Positions 18,071 to 28,560 of a stretch of DNA of 34,631 nucleotides are shown piece by piece. Both the position numbers and the translations under genes were made by a program. Origin of the DNA: an uncultured Chitinophagaceae bacterium. GTDB lineage: Bacteria > Bacteroidota > Bacteroidia > Chitinophagales > Chitinophagaceae. Location: contig CAISDV010000108.1 in assembly GCA_903884185.1 (NCBI GenBank), forward strand, positions 1 to 34,631, read 5' to 3'. Every line of letters starts with the position of its first letter. The first letter of the stretch is position 1. Below the pieces are notes generated by a model. That model saw nothing but the letters and a program-made list of their open reading frames with translations. It was not told the origin of the DNA and did not search any database.

Positions 18071-21000
18071 TCACTCCACTCGAATTTTTATTCCCTCACT
18101 ATGTGCTCCAAACTCCGGCGCATACATACATTGTATCGTTGCCAGCCCCGCTGAGAATCTGCCAACATGCGTGATGTACAAAGGATATTCAAATACATAA
18201 GTTCCTTTGTGAAGATTATTGATAAAGAAATTGGTGCTTGCATCGGCAGTAGCTTCATAATAACCCAATCCATCCTGCCATTTGTACCCGCTTAATACAT
18301 TGATGGGTTCCATACAGGCCGCGCGGGTATCTTTCAGGTGCAGGTATTCCATATCACGGTCACTTTTTAATTCTATTCGAACGATCACTTTATCACCCAC
18401 TTTTACTTCATCATTTTCATTGATGGGTGAAAGCAGTTTTCCTTTATCTGTATTTTTTTCAATGAATAATTTTCTGTGCAGGGATAGAGGAGAAGAGGCT
18501 TCTGTGATCCTGTCCATGTCCTCAAAATATTGCCAGTAAACACTTCCGTAAGAAATGGATGTATTGGTTGAAGGGAGGCTTGATTGTGTTGTAACGATAA
18601 TATTACCCATTGCCGGTTTTACCGCATTTGCTTCGATCCTTTTTTTGAAATAGCCTGTGCCTGCTTCTGTTGTTTCATTCGAAGAATTGATACGGTAATC
18701 ACCCAATTGGATCGTTACCTGTTTGTTATTGTTCAACAGGTCTTCGCCATTTAATAATAATGCAGAACAGGCATCAGCAGTAGCGATGGTTGTTTTCCAG
18801 TTATTGGTTTGTTTGTTCAGTATCAGCCATGTTTTCATATCGCTAATATTTTTACTGAGCGCTTGGTTTTTTTCTGTTTGATTTAATTCACTCATAAAGC
18901 TGATCACCAGGCTTTGGAATTCAATGGGCGACTGGTACCACCAGTTAGTATAAGTTTCTTTCCAATACATTCCTTGTGTAGAGCTGGCAACCGAATTTTC
19001 TGTGATGGAAGGAAGAATATTGCTGATGGCTATTTTTTTATCATCATTCCTGTAAAATATCAATCCTAATAATGCCTGGTTGTAGAGAGATTGCTTCACC
19101 CAATATTTTTTTGCCTGTGCATAATAATAATTGTACGCTTCTTTATTAGTGATCGCTTCTTCCGGGAAGAAACTCCGCATATATAAATATTGTATTTGAA
19201 AGGAGTAGAGTTGCTGCTCATCCATCTTTGCTTTATAACGAATTAAATTCTGATAATCTTCTGTGGCCTTTCCATCTAAATATTGAAGGGCGTTTTTGAT
19301 CATGTTCTTTGTTGCATTATCCATAGCTGCCAGCGCACCTGCTTTTTTCAGTTTGCCAATTCCGGTCATGATATAATTCGTCATATACCTGTCTTCATAG
19401 CCGCCTTTGAACCAGGTAAATGCGCCGTTGGATAATTGTGCCTGTTTCACTTTTTCAAGCGCCGACTGCATGCTGTTGCTCATTGTTACTACATCAAACA
19501 ACAAAGCAATATTCTTTTTCTGCTGCGTTTCATTTTCTGCCTGCAATACCCAGGGTGTTTCTTCTAATAATATTTGTTTTAACTCCTGGTTTTTTTGCAG
19601 GTTGCTTTTTAAGGCAGTAGTATCGCTCTTCCATTTTTCAAAAACATCTTTGATGCGTGGGTGTTTATTCACGATAAATGACGCCAGTGCATTGGCATAA
19701 AATCGGTTAAAGGTTTGCTCAGCACATTCGTAAGGATACTCTATCAAATAAGGCAAAGCCTGAACGGCGTACCAGGCAGGGTTAGCAGTATATTCAACTG
19801 TAATATCCTGATGGGTAAGTGTTTCGCTGGTGGTGTTCAGTAATTTGGAAAAAGTAAAATGTTGTGTGGTATCTCCGTTCAATAATAAGGGCATGCTTTC
19901 TGTTACCAACATTCGGTTCGTGATCACAGGCAAAGTATTTTCTTCCCCATCGCTGTAATCACCTGCTTTGGCAACGATGCGCCAGGTCAGTGGCCTGTTA
20001 TAACTGAATGGTACTTGAATTGGGAATTTAATAGAACTGCTTTGCCCTGCGCCAACAGTAAAATATTGCACCGGGAATACATTCACAAACCATCCGTCTA
20101 CAGAGGTATTAGTGGTAGCGTCTATTAATTCCAGGCTTGCCTGCCCGGTCAATTCTTTATCGCTGAGATTAGCAATTTTTGTAACAAATTCCATCTGGTC
20201 GCCTTCACGCATAAATCTTGGTGCATTGGGTTGCACCATCAATGTTTTTTGTGTAGTGATACTCGCGCTTTGTGTGCCGAATGACAGGTCTTTTGTATGC
20301 GCCAGGCTCATCCATTTCCATTGTGTCAATGCTTCGGGCATGGTAAAGCTGAAAGAAAAATTTCCTGATGAATCTGCATGTAATTGCGGGAAGAAGAAGG
20401 CTGTCTCGGAAAGGTTTTTGCGGATTTGGATATTGCCTAAATCATTTGTGTTTGTGCCACCGCTCGGTATGTGTATATACTCATAGACATTTCCTCTAAA
20501 AGGATTAAGGTCTGATTCTATTTGTGCTCCTGCCACTTTTCCTTCTAATGCCTGAGAGGGGGCAGGTTCTAAATTAAAAGTACTTGCTAATCCTGTGACA
20601 TCGCTTCTTCTCTGGGTGCCGTAGGCAACTACCACCACTTCAGATAAATTTTGACTTGCCCGCTGCACCTGAATATTCATGTAGATGATATTGGTATCAC
20701 CATACGATAGATAAGCATTCGCTAATGAAGATTCATTTTGGGCTAATTTGTCATAACTTGTCTGGTCATTCAATTGGTTTTGTGAAAGACTGTTTCCGAT
20801 AGAACTAATACTTGTAAAATGCGGGCCTGGCCTCCACTGACGAGTGTAATACCTGTTAGGCCACATATTATAAGGGGTCTCCCAACTATTTTGCGCAAAC
20901 TGATCTAAGGATGCATCATACATTCCGGTGAGTAATTCAGCAGCAACCTTTTCTCCCTTTTTTCCACTAAGTGTCACTGTCCATTTCTCATTACTCCCTG

Positions 21001-24000
21001 GCTCTGTTTTATCACGATAACTGGTATAATGTACGTTTAGTTCCTTGTTTGTCCAGGGTACGCGGATATTGTAAGTGTTGTTATATACCCGGTTATTTTT
21101 TACAAATATTTCATGAATTGCAACTCCACCTCTTTCTGCTTCTGAAGGTGTATACGCAATTTGCTCAATGCCTTTTTTTCGTAGAAGAAAATCAAAATTT
21201 GAATTGTTTTTTCTTAATGGGGTAAACACCTGTCGCAGAACAAATAATTGGTCTGATGAGCAACCAGAAAAGAATAATGCTTTTTCTCCGGGTTGAACTA
21301 TCTCTTTTACGGTATAGGTAAAATCATTTTCCGGAACAGGTGGATGGGTGCTATTGCGGTCAAAGACCTCAATATATCTGACATCCTTTACTGGTTGATT
21401 GTATTTGTCAAATGCAGAAGCTTCTATACGATAATACCCACTTGTTAAGGGCACATTGTCTAAAGAGAATTCTCCCTTATCGTTTGCATGAATCGTTTTA
21501 TCAGCTAATATTTCTCCCTTTGCCCAACTTGCGATAGAGTTGTCATTATCATAATCATCAGTAGGAAAAAGCCTGAGATACCTTTCTCTGTTAAGAACAA
21601 ATTGGTCGGGCCGTTGCCAGTATCTTTTCCTGACTACCCTGCCGGGTGATTCTAAGGGATAAATTTTTATCCCTACATCAGTGGTTTCTTTTTCTCCCGC
21701 CATATTTGTTGTGGAGATATTGATATGATGAAGGCTGTCTTTTTCAGCAATTGAAGGGGCAATGATCTGTAAAAGCAAAGATTGGTAAGCAACGCTCACA
21801 TTGGCACTGTTGGTTCTTGTTTCACCATTAATATCAGTTACTATGGCTTCAACAGAAAAATCAAAGATGGGGCTGGTTGATCTGTCAACTGAAAGGTCAG
21901 CCAATGCTTTAAAACTGATAGTAAACTTACCATCTGTCCCTGTTGTCATTTCACCATGTACGATTTCTTGCGAATTATTATTTGGCGGGTTGCCTCCACG
22001 CCATACCCATTCATACATATATCTTGCCCGTCTTTTTACATTAAATTTTACCAACGCACCATCTATATTATTACCGGCATAAGCTTTGGCAGAGCCTGTA
22101 AGGTGAATGCTGTCACCTAAACGATAGGCACCCTTTACTTTTTCGAAGGCTACATAAAATTTAGGGCGTTTATATTCTTCTACCCTGAAGGAAGCAGAGC
22201 CATCTACTATTGTTTCTGTACTCAACCTGAAGTAGCCTGTCAGCACATTCTGTGGAATAGTAAGGTTACTGGCAACTGAGCCAAATTCGTTTTGCAAACA
22301 ACGAACCGAATCAACGAATTTGCCATTCACATCACAGAGATAGACCCGGATGCTATCCTTTTGGACATATAATTTGCTTTGTCTTGTTTTCTCATCAGTT
22401 GTGACAGCAATTCCCTTAAAAAAAACTTTTTGCCCCGGCCTGTAAATGGCTCGATCTGTAAAAAAGAATATATTTTTTGTAATACGATCGCTTGGTTCAT
22501 TCCTACGCATTACATATTCGTTATTGTGTATATGGAGCTTGTCAGCACTGGTTTCTATAGAAAACTCCAAAGCCCCTTCATTAAGAGATTCATCGAGGCC
22601 AAACCATCCATGCGAATCAGTTTCTTTAGTGGATATCTCTATTAAGGAATACCCTCTCCTTGCTCGCTCATAATTTTTCTTAAATATACTCACAGAAGCC
22701 CTGTTTATAGGCTCCCCGGTTTCCCGATCTAGTACAAAATAATCATTATTGTTTTTGATATAGCTTAGACCAGATATATAAAAGTACTGAATGGCCATCT
22801 GGTCAGCATCCGCTTCAAATTCCTTTGAAGTAGATACCAGAATTGCATATTCCCCAACGGGCAAAGCATCTATGCTAATTTCAGTAAAATGTGTTTGATG
22901 ATCATAGGTGGCAGGTAATTTTTGTTTAAAGCCTTTGTCAACCGACAGACTTGAAGCGTATTCCCAAAAATCATGATTGATATATTTCGAACGGATCGAG
23001 TCATTATCTGAAATATCAATGATGCGGGCATACAGTGTATCTGTGTTTCGGTAAGTAACCAGCGTTCTGAATGGCTTCCCGGGAATATTCACATTTTCTG
23101 TTTGTAATTGGATGTTTTTTTGCTTTATTCCTGACAAGAGATTTTGCATGTGAATGTTGCCCAAGCTTCTTTCTTTTGTATTAGGTAGGATCTCACTGAT
23201 TATCTTTTCTGCTTTAATATAATTGTATCGATGTGTTGTATCACCAAAAGGGTTATAGTCCCTGGCTTTATCGGCATCCATTTTTGCAAATAGATACCAT
23301 GCTTCGGCTGCATCTGATTTTGAGAACCGGCTGGTAAGTTCTTTTAATGCCGTAGTATAGAATGTTTCTTTGTTTTCAAATACGCCCTGCCCGTTCACCC
23401 ATTGGATGCGTTCGATATCTGCATCAATCAATGCATCGGGTAAAGGATCGTTCAGGTGAAATGAAATAAGCTTTTGAAATACCTGTAAACTAATAAGCTG
23501 ACCGGAAGCAGAATCTTTAGATATGAAACGTGTATTTAAAAACTGAGCTATTGTACCTAATGCCTTGCTGTCATCCACTACAAAGGCATAAGAAGGTTTT
23601 GTAAAATAAGAATCTCCCGATTTAAAATAATCCAACGCTTCATGTGCAAGGAGGTCATATAGCGTAGGCCTGAGATTTCGTGCATTGCCTTTAATGATGA
23701 TGGCATCAAAGCTTTCCAGCTTTGTATGCTGAAGAACATCTGCGGCTTCCAACGACTTTAAATAATTGGCCGCAATAGCTGCATGAAAATCATCTGTGCT
23801 CCATGTAGCGATATCATCTTTTTTAAGATCGGTGGTATTGCTCCTGTTATAAAAACGGTAACGGTTATTGTTGAAATAGTTCTGAAATAGTTTCGCCTCC
23901 AAAGAATAAAGAATACTTTTTGCAGCGGTATTATTGGTATGACCGATAGCATCTTTAACTGTTGCAATACTCCTGTTAGGATTGAGCTCATTCACTTTGT

Positions 24001-24235
24001 CCTCCAGGCTATACCTGTAAATCAGCGCCTTGATCTGTTGCGCTTCATCATTACGTTGTATGGCTTGTTTGTAAAGAGTGTTTACTTTCTCTAAAGCCGA
24101 TTTGGTAAGATTGCGCCCTATGATCAATGTATCTATCTCCTTCCACTGCTTTTGAAAAGCAGTATCGGCCTGCTGTGCAGAGACAGTAATACATGACATA
24201 AGAAACAGGAAGAACAAACATTTCTTCAGGAGCAT
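18071..24235 (-). CDS. Giant alpha-2-macroglobulin family protein with an embedded SusC-like plug signature
   Basis: A 2054-aa exported protein. A signal peptide (MLLKKCLFFLFLMSCITVSA) starts at the ATG at 24235; the frame has an upstream TTG at 24244. Residues ~25-450 are mostly helical and unassigned. MG2-like beta domains follow, with the hallmark TDRAIYRPGQKVFFKG near 590. The conserved macroglobulin stretch ALTQWKWMSLAHTKDLSFG lies near 1300. A thioester-type motif CAEQ is at 1504-1507 in PYECAEQTF, followed by a terpenoid-cyclase-like helical barrel (ALEKVKQAQLSNGAFTWFKGG) and a C-terminal receptor-like domain. Bacterial relatives are thought to trap proteases in the envelope. Unusually, residues ~1195-1265 (SEVVVVAYGTQRRSDVTG, later ALEGKVAGAQI) copy the start of a SusC/TonB plug domain. 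No PBP1C gene is adjacent. Confidence 0.93.
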   Translation of the reverse strand: MLLKKCLFFLFLMSCITVSAQQADTAFQKQWKEIDTLIIGRNLTKSALEKVNTLYKQAIQRNDEAQQIKALIYRYSLEDKVNELNPNRSIATVKDAIGHTNNTAAKSILYSLEAKLFQNYFNNNRYRFYNRSNTTDLKKDDIATWSTDDFHAAIAANYLKSLEAADVLQHTKLESFDAIIIKGNARNLRPTLYDLLAHEALDYFKSGDSYFTKPSYAFVVDDSKALGTIAQFLNTRFISKDSASGQLISLQVFQKLISFHLNDPLPDALIDADIERIQWVNGQGVFENKETFYTTALKELTSRFSKSDAAEAWYLFAKMDADKARDYNPFGDTTHRYNYIKAEKIISEILPNTKERSLGNIHMQNLLSGIKQKNIQLQTENVNIPGKPFRTLVTYRNTDTLYARIIDISDNDSIRSKYINHDFWEYASSLSVDKGFKQKLPATYDHQTHFTEISIDALPVGEYAILVSTSKEFEADADQMAIQYFYISGLSYIKNNNDYFVLDRETGEPINRASVSIFKKNYERARRGYSLIEISTKETDSHGWFGLDESLNEGALEFSIETSADKLHIHNNEYVMRRNEPSDRITKNIFFFTDRAIYRPGQKVFFKGIAVTTDEKTRQSKLYVQKDSIRVYLCDVNGKFVDSVRCLQNEFGSVASNLTIPQNVLTGYFRLSTETIVDGSASFRVEEYKRPKFYVAFEKVKGAYRLGDSIHLTGSAKAYAGNNIDGALVKFNVKRRARYMYEWVWRGGNPPNNNSQEIVHGEMTTGTDGKFTISFKALADLSVDRSTSPIFDFSVEAIVTDINGETRTNSANVSVAYQSLLLQIIAPSIAEKDSLHHINISTTNMAGEKETTDVGIKIYPLESPGRVVRKRYWQRPDQFVLNRERYLRLFPTDDYDNDNSIASWAKGEILADKTIHANDKGEFSLDNVPLTSGYYRIEASAFDKYNQPVKDVRYIEVFDRNSTHPPVPENDFTYTVKEIVQPGEKALFFSGCSSDQLFVLRQVFTPLRKNNSNFDFLLRKKGIEQIAYTPSEAERGGVAIHEIFVKNNRVYNNTYNIRVPWTNKELNVHYTSYRDKTEPGSNEKWTVTLSGKKGEKVAAELLTGMYDASLDQFAQNSWETPYNMWPNRYYTRQWRPGPHFTSISSIGNSLSQNQLNDQTSYDKLAQNESSLANAYLSYGDTNIIYMNIQVQRASQNLSEVVVVAYGTQRRSDVTGLASTFNLEPAPSQALEGKVAGAQIESDLNPFRGNVYEYIHIPSGGTNTNDLGNIQIRKNLSETAFFFPQLHADSSGNFSFSFTMPEALTQWKWMSLAHTKDLSFGTQSASITTQKTLMVQPNAPRFMREGDQMEFVTKIANLSDKELTGQASLELIDATTNTSVDGWFVNVFPVQYFTVGAGQSSSIKFPIQVPFSYNRPLTWRIVAKAGDYSDGEENTLPVITNRMLVTESMPLLLNGDTTQHFTFSKLLNTTSETLTHQDITVEYTANPAWYAVQALPYLIEYPYECAEQTFNRFYANALASFIVNKHPRIKDVFEKWKSDTTALKSNLQKNQELKQILLEETPWVLQAENETQQKKNIALLFDVVTMSNSMQSALEKVKQAQLSNGAFTWFKGGYEDRYMTNYIMTGIGKLKKAGALAAMDNATKNMIKNALQYLDGKATEDYQNLIRYKAKMDEQQLYSFQIQYLYMRSFFPEEAITNKEAYNYYYAQAKKYWVKQSLYNQALLGLIFYRNDDKKIAISNILPSITENSVASSTQGMYWKETYTNWWYQSPIEFQSLVISFMSELNQTEKNQALSKNISDMKTWLILNKQTNNWKTTIATADACSALLLNGEDLLNNNKQVTIQLGDYRINSSNETTEAGTGYFKKRIEANAVKPAMGNIIVTTQSSLPSTNTSISYGSVYWQYFEDMDRITEASSPLSLHRKLFIEKNTDKGKLLSPINENDEVKVGDKVIVRIELKSDRDMEYLHLKDTRAACMEPINVLSGYKWQDGLGYYEATADASTNFFINNLHKGTYVFEYPLYITHVGRFSAGLATIQCMYAPEFGAHSEGIKIRVE

Positions 24236-24319
24236 GGGCCGCAATTTGATAGTAAAATAAGTTGTTTACTGAGAGTGAGATGCAAAGAGGAGGTTAATTG
24301 CACAAATAAAACGGCAAAT

Positions 24320-25527: not shown

Positions 25528-28500
25528 CTAAAACTTATAAAAGAGCCTGCTTTGTACGCCATAGCTGCTGGTAACCCGTAAGAAATACAAGCCATTAGAA
25601 AGGAAACCTGTTGCTATAGTAGTTGTATTGTTTCCCTGCAACAATGTCTTCTTCACGCTCCATTTCTTTACTCCAAAGATGTCATAGATGGCAACTTCTG
25701 CATCCACATTATTGTTCTTGCTCCAGATCACAGTTGTCATTTGTGTGCTAACCGGGTTAGGGTTGATGCTGAGGATGTTTACATAATCGCTGCCATTGTT
25801 TGCTACCGGTATGCTGTCGGTCACGAGTATTTCTACGCAGTATTCATTTTCACAACCCTTTGCTGTTTTGATCTTCATACATACTGTGAAGATGCCTGGG
25901 AAGCTGTATTGTTTTACCGGGCTGGCAGTGTTGCCATCGATAGATGATCCGTCACCAAATACCCATCTGCGTTCTATGATGCTGTCGCCATCAGGTACCC
26001 ATGTTGAAGAACTGTTGAACCTGATTGCTCTTTCAGCAATTTTTTCACTGGTGAACTGTGGTTTGCAATTTGTGTTCGGTGGCGGTGGAGCAATGGTTAC
26101 AGTATTGCACATCTTGCTTTCACAACCCTTTGCAGTTTTTGTGTAGAGGCAAACATTATAAGTGCCTGGTTTTGCATATTGGTGTGTAGCATAGATGGAG
26201 TTGCCTGTCAATGTGCTGGTATCACCAAATATCCATGTGCGACTAATGATGCTGTCGTTTGTTGGTGCAGTGCCTGTGCTTGCAACCACTATTGAATTAC
26301 CAAAAACTGAATCCCTGAAGCTGGTGTTACATACCATAGCCGGCGGTGGCGCAACATATACGTTTGTGCAGATATGGCTTTCGCAACCTCTTGCTGTTTT
26401 GATGTAGAAGCATACATTATAAGCGCCTGCTTTTGCATATTGGTGTACAGGATCATTGGTAGTGCTGCCAACAGTTGTGCTGCTTGTTGCATCGCCAAAT
26501 ACCCAGTAGCGGCTGATGATGCTGTCGTTTGCTGTTGCTGTGCCAATAAATTTCACATTATAGCCTTGTACAGAATCTCTGAAAGTAGCGCTGCAAATAA
26601 CGGGTGGCGGTGGTGCTATCACTACGGTTACTGTATTGCACATTTTGCTTTCACAACCTTTTGCTGTTTTAGTGTAGAGGCAAACATTGTAAGTGCCGCC
26701 TTTTGCATATTGATGTATTGGGTTGATGGCGTTGCTGCCAACAGTGTTAGGTGTGGTGCTGTCGCCAAATATCCAGGTGCGACTAACTACTGAATCACCT
26801 GTTGAAACAGAATTCAATCCGTAGAAACTTACGATCGCGCCTTTAACTGAATCCCTGAAATTGGTAGCACATACAGGTGGTGGCGGTGGAACAATGGTAA
26901 CATTAGAGCAGATATGGCTTTCGCAACCCTTTACTGTTTTTGTATATAGACAAACATTATAAGTACCTGCTTTTGCATACTGATGTGTTGGGTTGATATC
27001 AGAGCTACCGGTTGCAGTGCCATTGTCGCCGAATATCCATGTGCGGCTAACTACTGAATCACCGGTTGAAACTGAATTCAATCCATAGAAATTAACGGTG
27101 CTGCCATTTACTGTATCCCTGAAATAAGTAGCGCATACAGGTGGTGGCGGTGGAGCGATGGTTACTGTGTTGCACATCTTACTTTCACAACCCTTTGCTG
27201 TTTTGCTATAAAGGCAAACAGTATATGTTCCTGCTTTTGCATATTGATGTATTGGGTTTGTTTGTATGCTGCCGGCATTTGCTGTAGTGCTGTCGCCAAA
27301 GAACCAGGTACGACTGATCACTGAATCACCTGTTGAAACACCATTTACTGCATAGAAGTTAACCGTATTGCCTTTTACCGTATCCCTGAAAGTAGTGTAG
27401 CATACAGGAGGTGGTGGTGGCACAGCAATGGTAACAGTATTGCAGATATGGCTTTCGCAACCCTTTGCTGTCTTAGTGTAGAAGCAAACATTATAAGTTC
27501 CTGCTTTTGCAAATTGGTGTGTTGGGTTCATATCAGAGCTGCCTAGTGTAGATGTGTTGCTGCTATCGCCAAAGTACCAGGTGTGGCTAATCACTGAATC
27601 AGTGGTTGATACAGCTCCATAAAATTTCACTGTATTTCCTGAAACTGAATCTTTGAAATAAGTAGCACAGATAACCGGTGGAGGAGGAGCGATCACAACT
27701 GAATTGCAGAAATGGCTTTCACAACCGCTTGCTGTTTTAGTATAAAGGCAAACATTATAAGTACCTGCTTTTGCATATTGATGTGTTGGGTTAGTAGCAG
27801 TGCTGCCCGCTGCAGATGTACTGCTGTCGCCAAAATACCAGCTGCGACTAACTACTGAATCACCTGTTGAAACAGAACTCATTGCATAAAAATTAACTGT
27901 ATTGCCTTTTATAGTATCCCTGAAATAGGTTGCGCAAACCGGAGGTGCTGGTGCAGGGATAGTAATTGTATAACAAGCTTTGTTGGTGCAACCCTTTGCT
28001 GTTTGAATAGCGAGGCAAACATTATATGTACCTGGTTTTGGAAATTGATATGTCAGGTTTGTTAAGTTACCTGTAATAACAGAACTGTCACCAAAATACC
28101 ATGTGCGGCTTGTAATAGTATCGTTTGATGAAGTACTTGCATTGCTATAAAATTTTATCGTAGTACCTGCAACTGAATCCCTGAAACCTGCAGAACAAAC
28201 AGGCGCTATTGTTGGTACACAACTTAAAGTAAAATTATTTTCAACTGTAATTGATCCGGCAGCTACATGTGGTGTGTTGATCAACACATTTCCATTGCAA
28301 TCTTCGGTAGATATTCTTACTATCCTGATATCCACGCTGCAGCTGATAGTATCTATATAATAGCCATTGGCATTGGTTGTTTTTGTATGCTGAACGGTGC
28401 AGGCTGCACTGTCAACACTGATCTTTACTGTGCGGTTAGCAGCTGCTGTGCCGTTGCTGTATTGGATATAGCCTTTTACGATTACTGTATTGGCAAATAA

Positions 28501-28560
28501 CTGTGTGGCGAAGAGGCTACAGAAGGCTAAGATGAGGATCTGCGTAAATGTGTTTTTCAT
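25528..28560 (-). CDS. Secreted PKD-repeat protein with T9SS C-terminal sorting domain
   Basis: A 1010-aa exported protein, probably a cell-surface adhesin or carbohydrate-contact protein. A signal peptide (MKNTFTQILILAFCSLFATQ) is followed by a carboxypeptidase-regulatory/transthyretin-like beta domain (~25-118). Nine PKD-type units of ~88 aa follow (residues ~120-915), each with a W-x-FGD core (SRTWYFGDSS), a Y-x-x-x-G-x-[YF]-x-V-C strand and a Pro-rich PPPP linker. Every unit keeps four Cys at the same places (PVC, NVC, KGC, and C two or three residues later), which suggests two disulfides per unit. The C-terminal ~75 residues (SINPNPVSTQMT to GLYFLRVTSSYGVQSRLFYKF) are a type A T9SS sorting domain. 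It is divergent from efp and has its own terminator. Confidence 0.93.
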   Translation of the reverse strand: MKNTFTQILILAFCSLFATQLFANTVIVKGYIQYSNGTAAANRTVKISVDSAACTVQHTKTTNANGYYIDTISCSVDIRIVRISTEDCNGNVLINTPHVAAGSITVENNFTLSCVPTIAPVCSAGFRDSVAGTTIKFYSNASTSSNDTITSRTWYFGDSSVITGNLTNLTYQFPKPGTYNVCLAIQTAKGCTNKACYTITIPAPAPPVCATYFRDTIKGNTVNFYAMSSVSTGDSVVSRSWYFGDSSTSAAGSTATNPTHQYAKAGTYNVCLYTKTASGCESHFCNSVVIAPPPPVICATYFKDSVSGNTVKFYGAVSTTDSVISHTWYFGDSSNTSTLGSSDMNPTHQFAKAGTYNVCFYTKTAKGCESHICNTVTIAVPPPPPVCYTTFRDTVKGNTVNFYAVNGVSTGDSVISRTWFFGDSTTANAGSIQTNPIHQYAKAGTYTVCLYSKTAKGCESKMCNTVTIAPPPPPVCATYFRDTVNGSTVNFYGLNSVSTGDSVVSRTWIFGDNGTATGSSDINPTHQYAKAGTYNVCLYTKTVKGCESHICSNVTIVPPPPPVCATNFRDSVKGAIVSFYGLNSVSTGDSVVSRTWIFGDSTTPNTVGSNAINPIHQYAKGGTYNVCLYTKTAKGCESKMCNTVTVVIAPPPPVICSATFRDSVQGYNVKFIGTATANDSIISRYWVFGDATSSTTVGSTTNDPVHQYAKAGAYNVCFYIKTARGCESHICTNVYVAPPPAMVCNTSFRDSVFGNSIVVASTGTAPTNDSIISRTWIFGDTSTLTGNSIYATHQYAKPGTYNVCLYTKTAKGCESKMCNTVTIAPPPPNTNCKPQFTSEKIAERAIRFNSSSTWVPDGDSIIERRWVFGDGSSIDGNTASPVKQYSFPGIFTVCMKIKTAKGCENEYCVEILVTDSIPVANNGSDYVNILSINPNPVSTQMTTVIWSKNNNVDAEVAIYDIFGVKKWSVKKTLLQGNNTTTIATGFLSNGLYFLRVTSSYGVQSRLFYKF
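25816..28203 (-). repeat. Nine tandem ~265-base coding repeats (PKD units)
   Basis: Units recur about every 265 bases, each containing near-identical blocks such as TTTGCTGTTTT, CATTATAAGT and TGAATCACCTGTTGAAAC on the plus strand. The middle units (about 26640-27950) are the most alike, which suggests recent duplication by recombination. The outermost units (first and last) have diverged. Confidence 0.85.

Follow-up and report, generated by a model that had tools for sequence, protein, structure and literature searches.

Macroglobulin baits are usually regarded as arbitrary flexible sequence, whilst transporters of the SusC/RagA type are outer-membrane barrels of 22 strands, and the two kinds of protein meet in the locus described here. 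In the alpha-2-macroglobulin (A2M) of E. coli the bait region lies in domain MG8 and is largely disordered, with Arg923-Leu942 unseen, and cutting of the bait triggers a conformational change that exposes the thioester, according to the accessible part of PMC4498604. For the SusC protein Bt1763 the accessible part of PMC7782687 reports that proteolysis had removed the plug in one crystal, that plug density was missing in the closed states, and that deletion or mutation of the Ton box gave a growth defect like that of a SusD-less strain. The window analysed here is a stretch of 34,631 nucleotides from an uncultured Chitinophagaceae bacterium (assembly GCA_903884185.1, contig CAISDV010000108.1), and it encodes a macroglobulin with TonB-receptor-like sequence inside its bait. 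As judged by sequence comparison, pieces resembling TonB-receptor N-termini recur as building material in the baits of this macroglobulin family, whether in or out of transporter order, the pieces being the Ton box, plug strands and sometimes the extra N-terminal domain.

The initial annotation had read the gene as an alpha-2-macroglobulin with a pair of SusC-type motifs upstream of CAEQ (residues 1504-1507), and the Pfam scan, a match to TIGR04056 (E 2e-8) and the motif positions confirm this: SEVVVVAYGTQRRSDVTG (SEVVVVAYG) begins at residue 1198, ALEGKVAG at 1229 and CAEQ at 1504. The second motif is present as described, although it begins 14 residues beyond the end of the first and not about 25. 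For comparison across baits and receptors, six blocks (A-F) were drawn from 17 SusC N-termini, several of which came from the genome of the window, and were scored in each bait and in 400 shuffled versions of it with a threshold of p<=0.005; the blocks were picked after inspecting both baits and receptors, and the p-values serve as description and draw their weight from the controls. The features of the gene, all on the minus strand, are as follows.

18071..24244, minus strand: macroglobulin gene (open reading frame (ORF) list and translation; Pfam MG2, A2M and bMG10), product of 2054 amino acids with its initial M at 24235
24173..24235, minus strand: putative signal peptide, residues 1-21, ending VSAQ (read by eye from the translation; homologues end alike)
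22187..22471, minus strand: MG2 domain, residues 589-683 (Pfam PF01835, E 4e-16)
20441..20812, minus strand: bait region, residues 1142-1265, predicted disordered (AlphaFold confidence below 50, model residues 263-386)
20591..20647, minus strand: Ton box signature LSEVVVVAYGTQRRSDVTG, residues 1197-1215 (block A, 52.4 bits, p<=0.005, and TIGR04056)
20513..20554, minus strand: first plug motif QALEGKVAGAQIES, residues 1228-1241 (block B, 27.7 bits, p<=0.005)
20141..20404, minus strand: A2M domain 3' of the bait, residues 1278-1365 (Pfam PF00207, E 2.5e-18)
19715..19726, minus strand: thioester motif CAEQ, residues 1504-1507 (position in the translation; CxEQ in aligned homologues)
18113..18487, minus strand: bMG10 domain, residues 1917-2041 (Pfam PF17973, E 3e-31)

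The SusC/RagA-like segment covers approximately residues 1186-1242, inside the bait region. An 80-residue query matched TIGR04056 (OMP_RagA_SusC) with 33 bits at model positions 68-129, far under the whole-protein cut-off of 368 bits for that model, and the match was visible only with the segment, a 254-residue piece or a 521-residue piece as query; the NCBIfam scan of the full-length protein listed no family. When the protein was searched against its own genome at E<=0.001, only residues 1186-1242 and 1188-1240 matched anything besides the protein itself, the subjects being two ORFs of 1071 and 1081 amino acids (E 1e-4 and 1.9e-4), both with a Pfam Plug domain. Pfam Plug (PF07715) matched neither the full window protein nor the segment, and blocks C-F were not found in the bait, which holds the Ton box (A) and the first plug motif (B) only. 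Since the TIGR04056 and own-genome receptor matches stand together with the lack of a Plug match, the pair is real and SusC-like but consists of two motifs and is not a plug domain. No beta-barrel domain was found in the Pfam scan of the protein, as the initial annotation had said, the A2M domain, CAEQ and bMG10 coming after the segment; the single CarboxypepD_reg match (residues 913-943) was below cut-off.

The place of the segment within the fold was assessed with an AlphaFold model of residues 880-1400, built on an alignment of 48 rows (of 50 eligible rows, alignment A1 took 47 plus the window protein and alignment A2 36 plus the window protein). Ahead of the bait, as far as model residue 250, the mean predicted local distance difference test (pLDDT) score was 81-97; it fell below 50 at model residues 263-386 (residues 1142-1265) and was 54-95 beyond the bait, starting at model residue 391. 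In the low-scoring stretch the only predicted secondary structure was one short helix near residue 1170, with none in the SusC-like part. The closest solved structure in the VIA comparison was Salmonella A2M 4u48 (Z 13.9, root-mean-square deviation (rmsd) 9.2, 296 residues aligned), and E. coli A2M 4rtd gave Z 13.5 and rmsd 8.2 with model residues 182-521 on chain residues 855-1081; the rows listed by Foldseek were likewise macroglobulin-family chains. On either side of the bait the flanks align with those of the E. coli and Salmonella proteins (4u48, 4ziq and 4rtd), and this alignment together with the predicted disorder places the SusC-like segment in the bait. The Pfam bait-region domain A2M_BRD (PF07703) matched 25 of the 48 rows, the window row not being among them. 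An earlier suggestion that the segment had been captured as bait thus fits, the TIGR04056 and own-genome matches marking it as TonB-receptor-like and the AlphaFold model and the A2M alignment placing it there, but its description as a plug-like module is not supported: the model predicts no plug fold for the window bait, which contains the Ton box and the first plug motif alone. A plug domain in the window protein was rejected on the missing Pfam Plug match and the predicted disorder. The initial annotation had named a disordered loop without plug topology, absent from close homologues, as the outcome that would speak against it; the loop is indeed predicted disordered and without plug topology, but close homologues do have such sequence, all four of the nearest tree rows carrying SusC blocks.

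Homologues were sought in 147 genomes of the same bacterial family at E<=1e-30, and the protein was found in 93; a further contig scan gave 80 loci, mostly Bacteroidota. In all, 117 ORFs matched the protein, 17 of them without bait coverage, and the 100 that were aligned provided 98 distinct baits. Three family members (L083, L094 and L095) are on contigs filed as Sulfurovum or Campylobacteraceae, by transfer or contamination. Identity to the window protein was 0.13-0.17 over residues 1151-1250, compared with 0.43-0.61 in 50-residue blocks across 1251-1600 and 0.23-0.48 in those across 601-1150.

At least one SusC block was found at p<=0.005 in 36 of the 98 distinct baits and at least two in 22 of 98, block A being the commonest (24/98). 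The controls were other segments of the same proteins (those under 60 residues left out; n 92-98) and shuffled baits, and none reached two blocks (0/98, 0/92, 0/92, 0/97 and, for the shuffled baits, 0/98). Single blocks appeared in 5/98, 2/92, 1/92, 2/97 and 8/98 control rows, so a few of the 36 block-positive baits are likely chance; that the window segment itself resembles SusC by chance is next to inconceivable given its E of 2e-8 to TIGR04056 and the lack of any two-block control row. The blocks were out of transporter order in nine of the 22 multi-block baits (7/18 with a 12-bit floor). Apart from the blocks, library searches at E<=0.01 matched TIGR04056 in 8/48 rows, TIGR04057 in 5/48 and Plug in 5/48.

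A BLAST comparison of the 98 baits used 1361 ORFs as subjects, 441 from stretches of the window's genome plus the window and 920 from contig-scan loci, a receptor-enriched set in that 20 of its stretches had been fetched for a Plug match; 86 macroglobulin ORFs were excluded from the matches. At E<=1e-3 a non-macroglobulin match was obtained for 15/98 baits, whereas four other segments taken from these proteins gave 0, 1, 0 and 0 of 98 and three shuffles gave 0/98 each. At E<=0.01, 22 subject ORFs were matched, and in the long receptor-like ones the matches fell within approximately the first 290 residues, with no bait match at that threshold in their barrel part; the remaining subjects carry, by inspection, plug or carboxypeptidase-regulatory pieces. 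A census of the 1361 ORFs for at least two blocks returned 23, comprising ten receptors, 11 macroglobulins and two others, those two having been fetched for Plug.

Inspection of the baits revealed many kinds of receptor-like piece, and receptor types other than SusC are copied as well. When four genomes were searched with the L021 bait piece (LLKKLPGVQVD...), the sole matches were the piece itself and ORFs of 903-1016 amino acids, of which the three that were examined have CarboxypepD_reg and OMP_b-brl_3; the L014 bait matched, besides itself, only own-genome ORFs of 977 and 904 amino acids, the better of which has Plug. A bait piece of L112 (Bacteroidales) is 71-78% identical to ORFs of 1269-1292 amino acids with CarboxypepD_reg and Plug, and further matched the L105 macroglobulin, three ORFs of 2072-2201 amino acids and one of 563. 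The L064 bait is 65% identical to a 1244-residue ORF with CarboxypepD_reg and Plug and 54% identical to a 721-residue YfbK/vWA protein.

Near-complete plugs occur as well, and they bear on the idea that a folded plug module was captured as a contact element, seating, for instance, in an emptied receptor barrel. The bait of the close homologue L034 carries nearly the whole Ton box and plug, unlike the window copy, and matches solved SusC plugs at E 7e-27, its last part being predicted as strands and a helix with pLDDT of approximately 74-82; L270, a second macroglobulin of genome G076 (2132 amino acids), matches Pfam Plug at E 8e-8 ahead of its A2M domain. Set against these, the Ton box stretch stays below pLDDT 50 even in L034, and the window protein lacks blocks C-F altogether and has a bait predicted to be disordered, and we consider a captured folded plug very improbable.

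The receptor-like content of the baits turns over rapidly. On a FastTree core tree of 93 of the 100 rows, in which 20 of the 88 inner branches are open, a minimum of 14 changes is needed for the state of having two or more blocks and a minimum of seven for block F, and the window protein clusters with L036, L034, L102 and L033, all four of which have SusC blocks, L102 and L033 having A and B only as against the nearly whole plug of L034. L102 and L033 are 98% identical downstream of the bait and 32% in it. In both this pair and the pair L013/L020 the identity of 96-98% after the bait drops to 61-68% in the 500 residues before it, the pre-bait part changing much faster.

Such gain and loss is what would be expected if a bait tolerates any flexible sequence and 5' copies of numerous receptor genes land in it by recombination and then decay. 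Receptor genes are many, with Plug matches running from 15 to at least 141 per genome in 20 genomes (at least 141 in two), and the constraint on the blocks is mixed. On the other hand, only the receptor N-terminal part is found, in frame and never the barrel, which is partly a detection effect as barrels are less conserved; receptor pieces also occur in 28 of 30 DUF4139 linkers (see below). In the L013 bait DNA, likewise, the resemblance to receptor genes is confined to 35-55 bases at the Ton box (76-89% identity), the three matching loci that were translated being SusC-type receptors, so no recent copy is seen in the two genomes searched, and recent gene conversion was rejected on the same ground. 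Neutral capture is, on balance, a rather unlikely explanation.

The same pieces occur in unrelated exported proteins. In the window's genome, L150:2385-4205 (minus strand) encodes a DUF4140/DUF4139 protein with Pfam Plug in its linker, and amongst 30 DUF4139 rows (the linkers L219-L248 among them) at least one SusC block was found in 28 and at least two in 25, some reordered as in the baits, in a count whose only control was each linker's own shuffles and in which the query itself and two ORFs from a single locus are included. Four of the linkers have, by eye, an apparent receptor extra N-terminal domain. A reordered DUF4139 piece matched in 9/98 genomes, finding other DUF4139 proteins, two ordinary-looking receptors, L270 and two proteins with a mid-chain Plug. 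L272 and L273 (1109 and 1103 amino acids) have Pfam Plug mid-chain followed by TPR or DUF2135 matches, some below cut-off, and an additional LAGRIAG-like piece ahead of Plug; L255 is a YfbK/vWA protein that starts with CarboxypepD_reg and a partial Plug; and L154:2-2463 (plus strand), again of the window's genome, encodes a single protein that combines M56 peptidase, amidase_3 and TonB_C with a plug fragment whose match is below cut-off. A small, apparently exported ORF of 130 residues (L162) consists mostly of the last plug part. Because the DUF4139 linkers carry the same pieces, the phenomenon is wider than protease baits, and the presence of these pieces in non-trap proteins points to a more general use, for example TonB docking, or to a common source of linker sequence.

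Docking of this kind would mean that the bait Ton box serves as a binding site for the TonB C-terminal domain, placing the macroglobulin and the DUF4139, vWA and TPR proteins at TonB-ExbBD or beneath receptors. The window motif resembles the Bt1763 Ton box DEVVVTG (accessible part of PMC7782687), block A is the commonest block in the baits and frequent in DUF4139 linkers, the host protein L154 additionally has a TonB_C domain, and docking would account for the sharing of these pieces by unrelated exported proteins. Block A is nevertheless absent from 74/98 baits, several hosts (L004, L154 and L162) have later plug parts only and no Ton box, and the window Ton box sits mid-chain within the macroglobulin and not near an N-terminus; nor did the scan of ten neighbouring ORFs, two of them without a family match, turn up a Ton or Sus gene. 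We regard TonB docking as unlikely. Broader, and a shade more doubtful again, is the proposal that Bacteroidota use a portable, rearrangeable 'receptor-start' module of Ton box and plug strands in several unrelated exported proteins, the macroglobulin bait included, for recognition by whatever recognises plugs, be it TonB, an emptied receptor barrel or a plug-cutting protease. If true, the module would make the macroglobulin a trap standing where receptors open, sprung by attack on its plug mimic.

The reading that we tentatively prefer, at a probability still short of even, is that the bait has been rebuilt repeatedly from TonB-receptor N-terminal sequence and works as a decoy cleavage sequence. 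A protease reaching the periplasm would cut the bait, and the macroglobulin would then collapse and the CAEQ thioester bond to the protease, by analogy with E. coli A2M. Receptor plugs may be abundant periplasm-facing peptides that can turn loose and protease-sensitive; since a loose plug would be a natural periplasmic protease target, a bait of the same sequence could act as a decoy for whichever proteases attack plugs. Several findings weigh against the decoy. No SusC block was found in 62/98 baits, so receptor sequence is not needed for the trap, and the BLAST contrast narrows at E<=0.05 to 19/98 baits against 5, 8, 5 and 5 of 98 for the other segments (2, 1 and 2 of 98 for the three bait shuffles). 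L013 and L020 are 96% identical downstream yet 23% in the bait, with the Ton box only in L013. Conservation of the blocks relative to the rest of the bait is mixed across relatives: in the window clade the blocks are better kept in eight of ten pairs (e.g. 15/31 vs 15/60) and equal in two, and they are better kept than the remainder in the L076/L050 pair, but worse in all three pairs of the L030/L039/L069 trio (e.g. 13/26 vs 48/68), and such pairwise sequence comparison makes no clean case for selection. Finally, receptor pieces occur in proteins not known as protease traps (DUF4139, YfbK/vWA, TPR/DUF2135 and, weakly, M56/amidase), and a decoy role leaves these cases unexplained.

The recurrence in these baits of one kind of source, the TonB-receptor N-terminus, gives a clue to what the trap may encounter in the periplasm and renders bait choice testable. 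The pieces in DUF4139, vWA, TPR/DUF2135 and M56 proteins suggest that Ton box and plug sequence is used outside transporters, a use of which no description was found. For annotation it follows that Plug or SusC matches in such proteins do not denote transporters. In searches of the open-licence PMC literature no paper was found that brings macroglobulins together with TonB, plug or bait terms, and broader searches gave no sign of such work among the titles and opening abstract lines listed, which is not proof of novelty; the accessible part of PMC5764988 does not mention TonB or DUF2135.

In the window protein MG2, A2M and bMG10 occur in that order, every one above its Pfam cut-off, CxEQ is retained in 83 of the 99 aligned homologue rows covering the thioester site, and the protein is best read from its sequence as a probably periplasmic type I (thioester, CAEQ) bacterial macroglobulin. 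Lipoprotein anchoring was considered, LMSC in the signal peptide resembling a lipobox, and rejected, a conserved cysteine being absent by eye, and no conserved lipobox seen, in the N-termini of 25 of the 100 aligned rows. In the scan of ten neighbouring ORFs, eight had matches to housekeeping families or to a PKD/type IX secretion system (T9SS) protein; no pbpC was found among the ten, and the absence of Ton and Sus genes applies to the same scan, the window below 14397 lying outside it. The PKD/T9SS protein (25528-28560, minus strand), two genes from the macroglobulin, has 1010 amino acids with PKD repeats and a T9SS sorting tail.

Compared with described systems, the window protein is closest to E. 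coli A2M (ECAM/YfhM) and Salmonella A2M, sharing their macroglobulin (MG) domains, a bait at the same place, the CxEQ thioester and the fold (VIA Z 13.0-13.9). It differs from them in sequence (12-16% identity in aligned chains, rmsd 8-9), in the TonB-receptor-like sequence of its bait, and in having no conserved lipobox in the 25 N-termini inspected and no pbpC among its ten scanned neighbours. Human A2M and A2ML1 and complement C3 and C5 have the macroglobulin fold around the bait position at 7-18% identity in the rows listed, and we know of no TonB-receptor-like bait in them. With the N-terminus of SusC/RagA transporters (Bt1763, RagA) the window copy shares the Ton box signature and the ALxGKVAG motif, and its relative L034 shares nearly the whole plug; unlike a transporter, the window protein has no barrel, no N-terminal extension before the Ton box and no Plug match, and the block order is broken in nine of 22 multi-block relatives. 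The DUF4140/DUF4139 proteins of the same bacterial family, which we take to be MuiA-like, had no macroglobulin domain in the one scanned, and are alike in their variable linker, which carries the same receptor pieces, also reordered.

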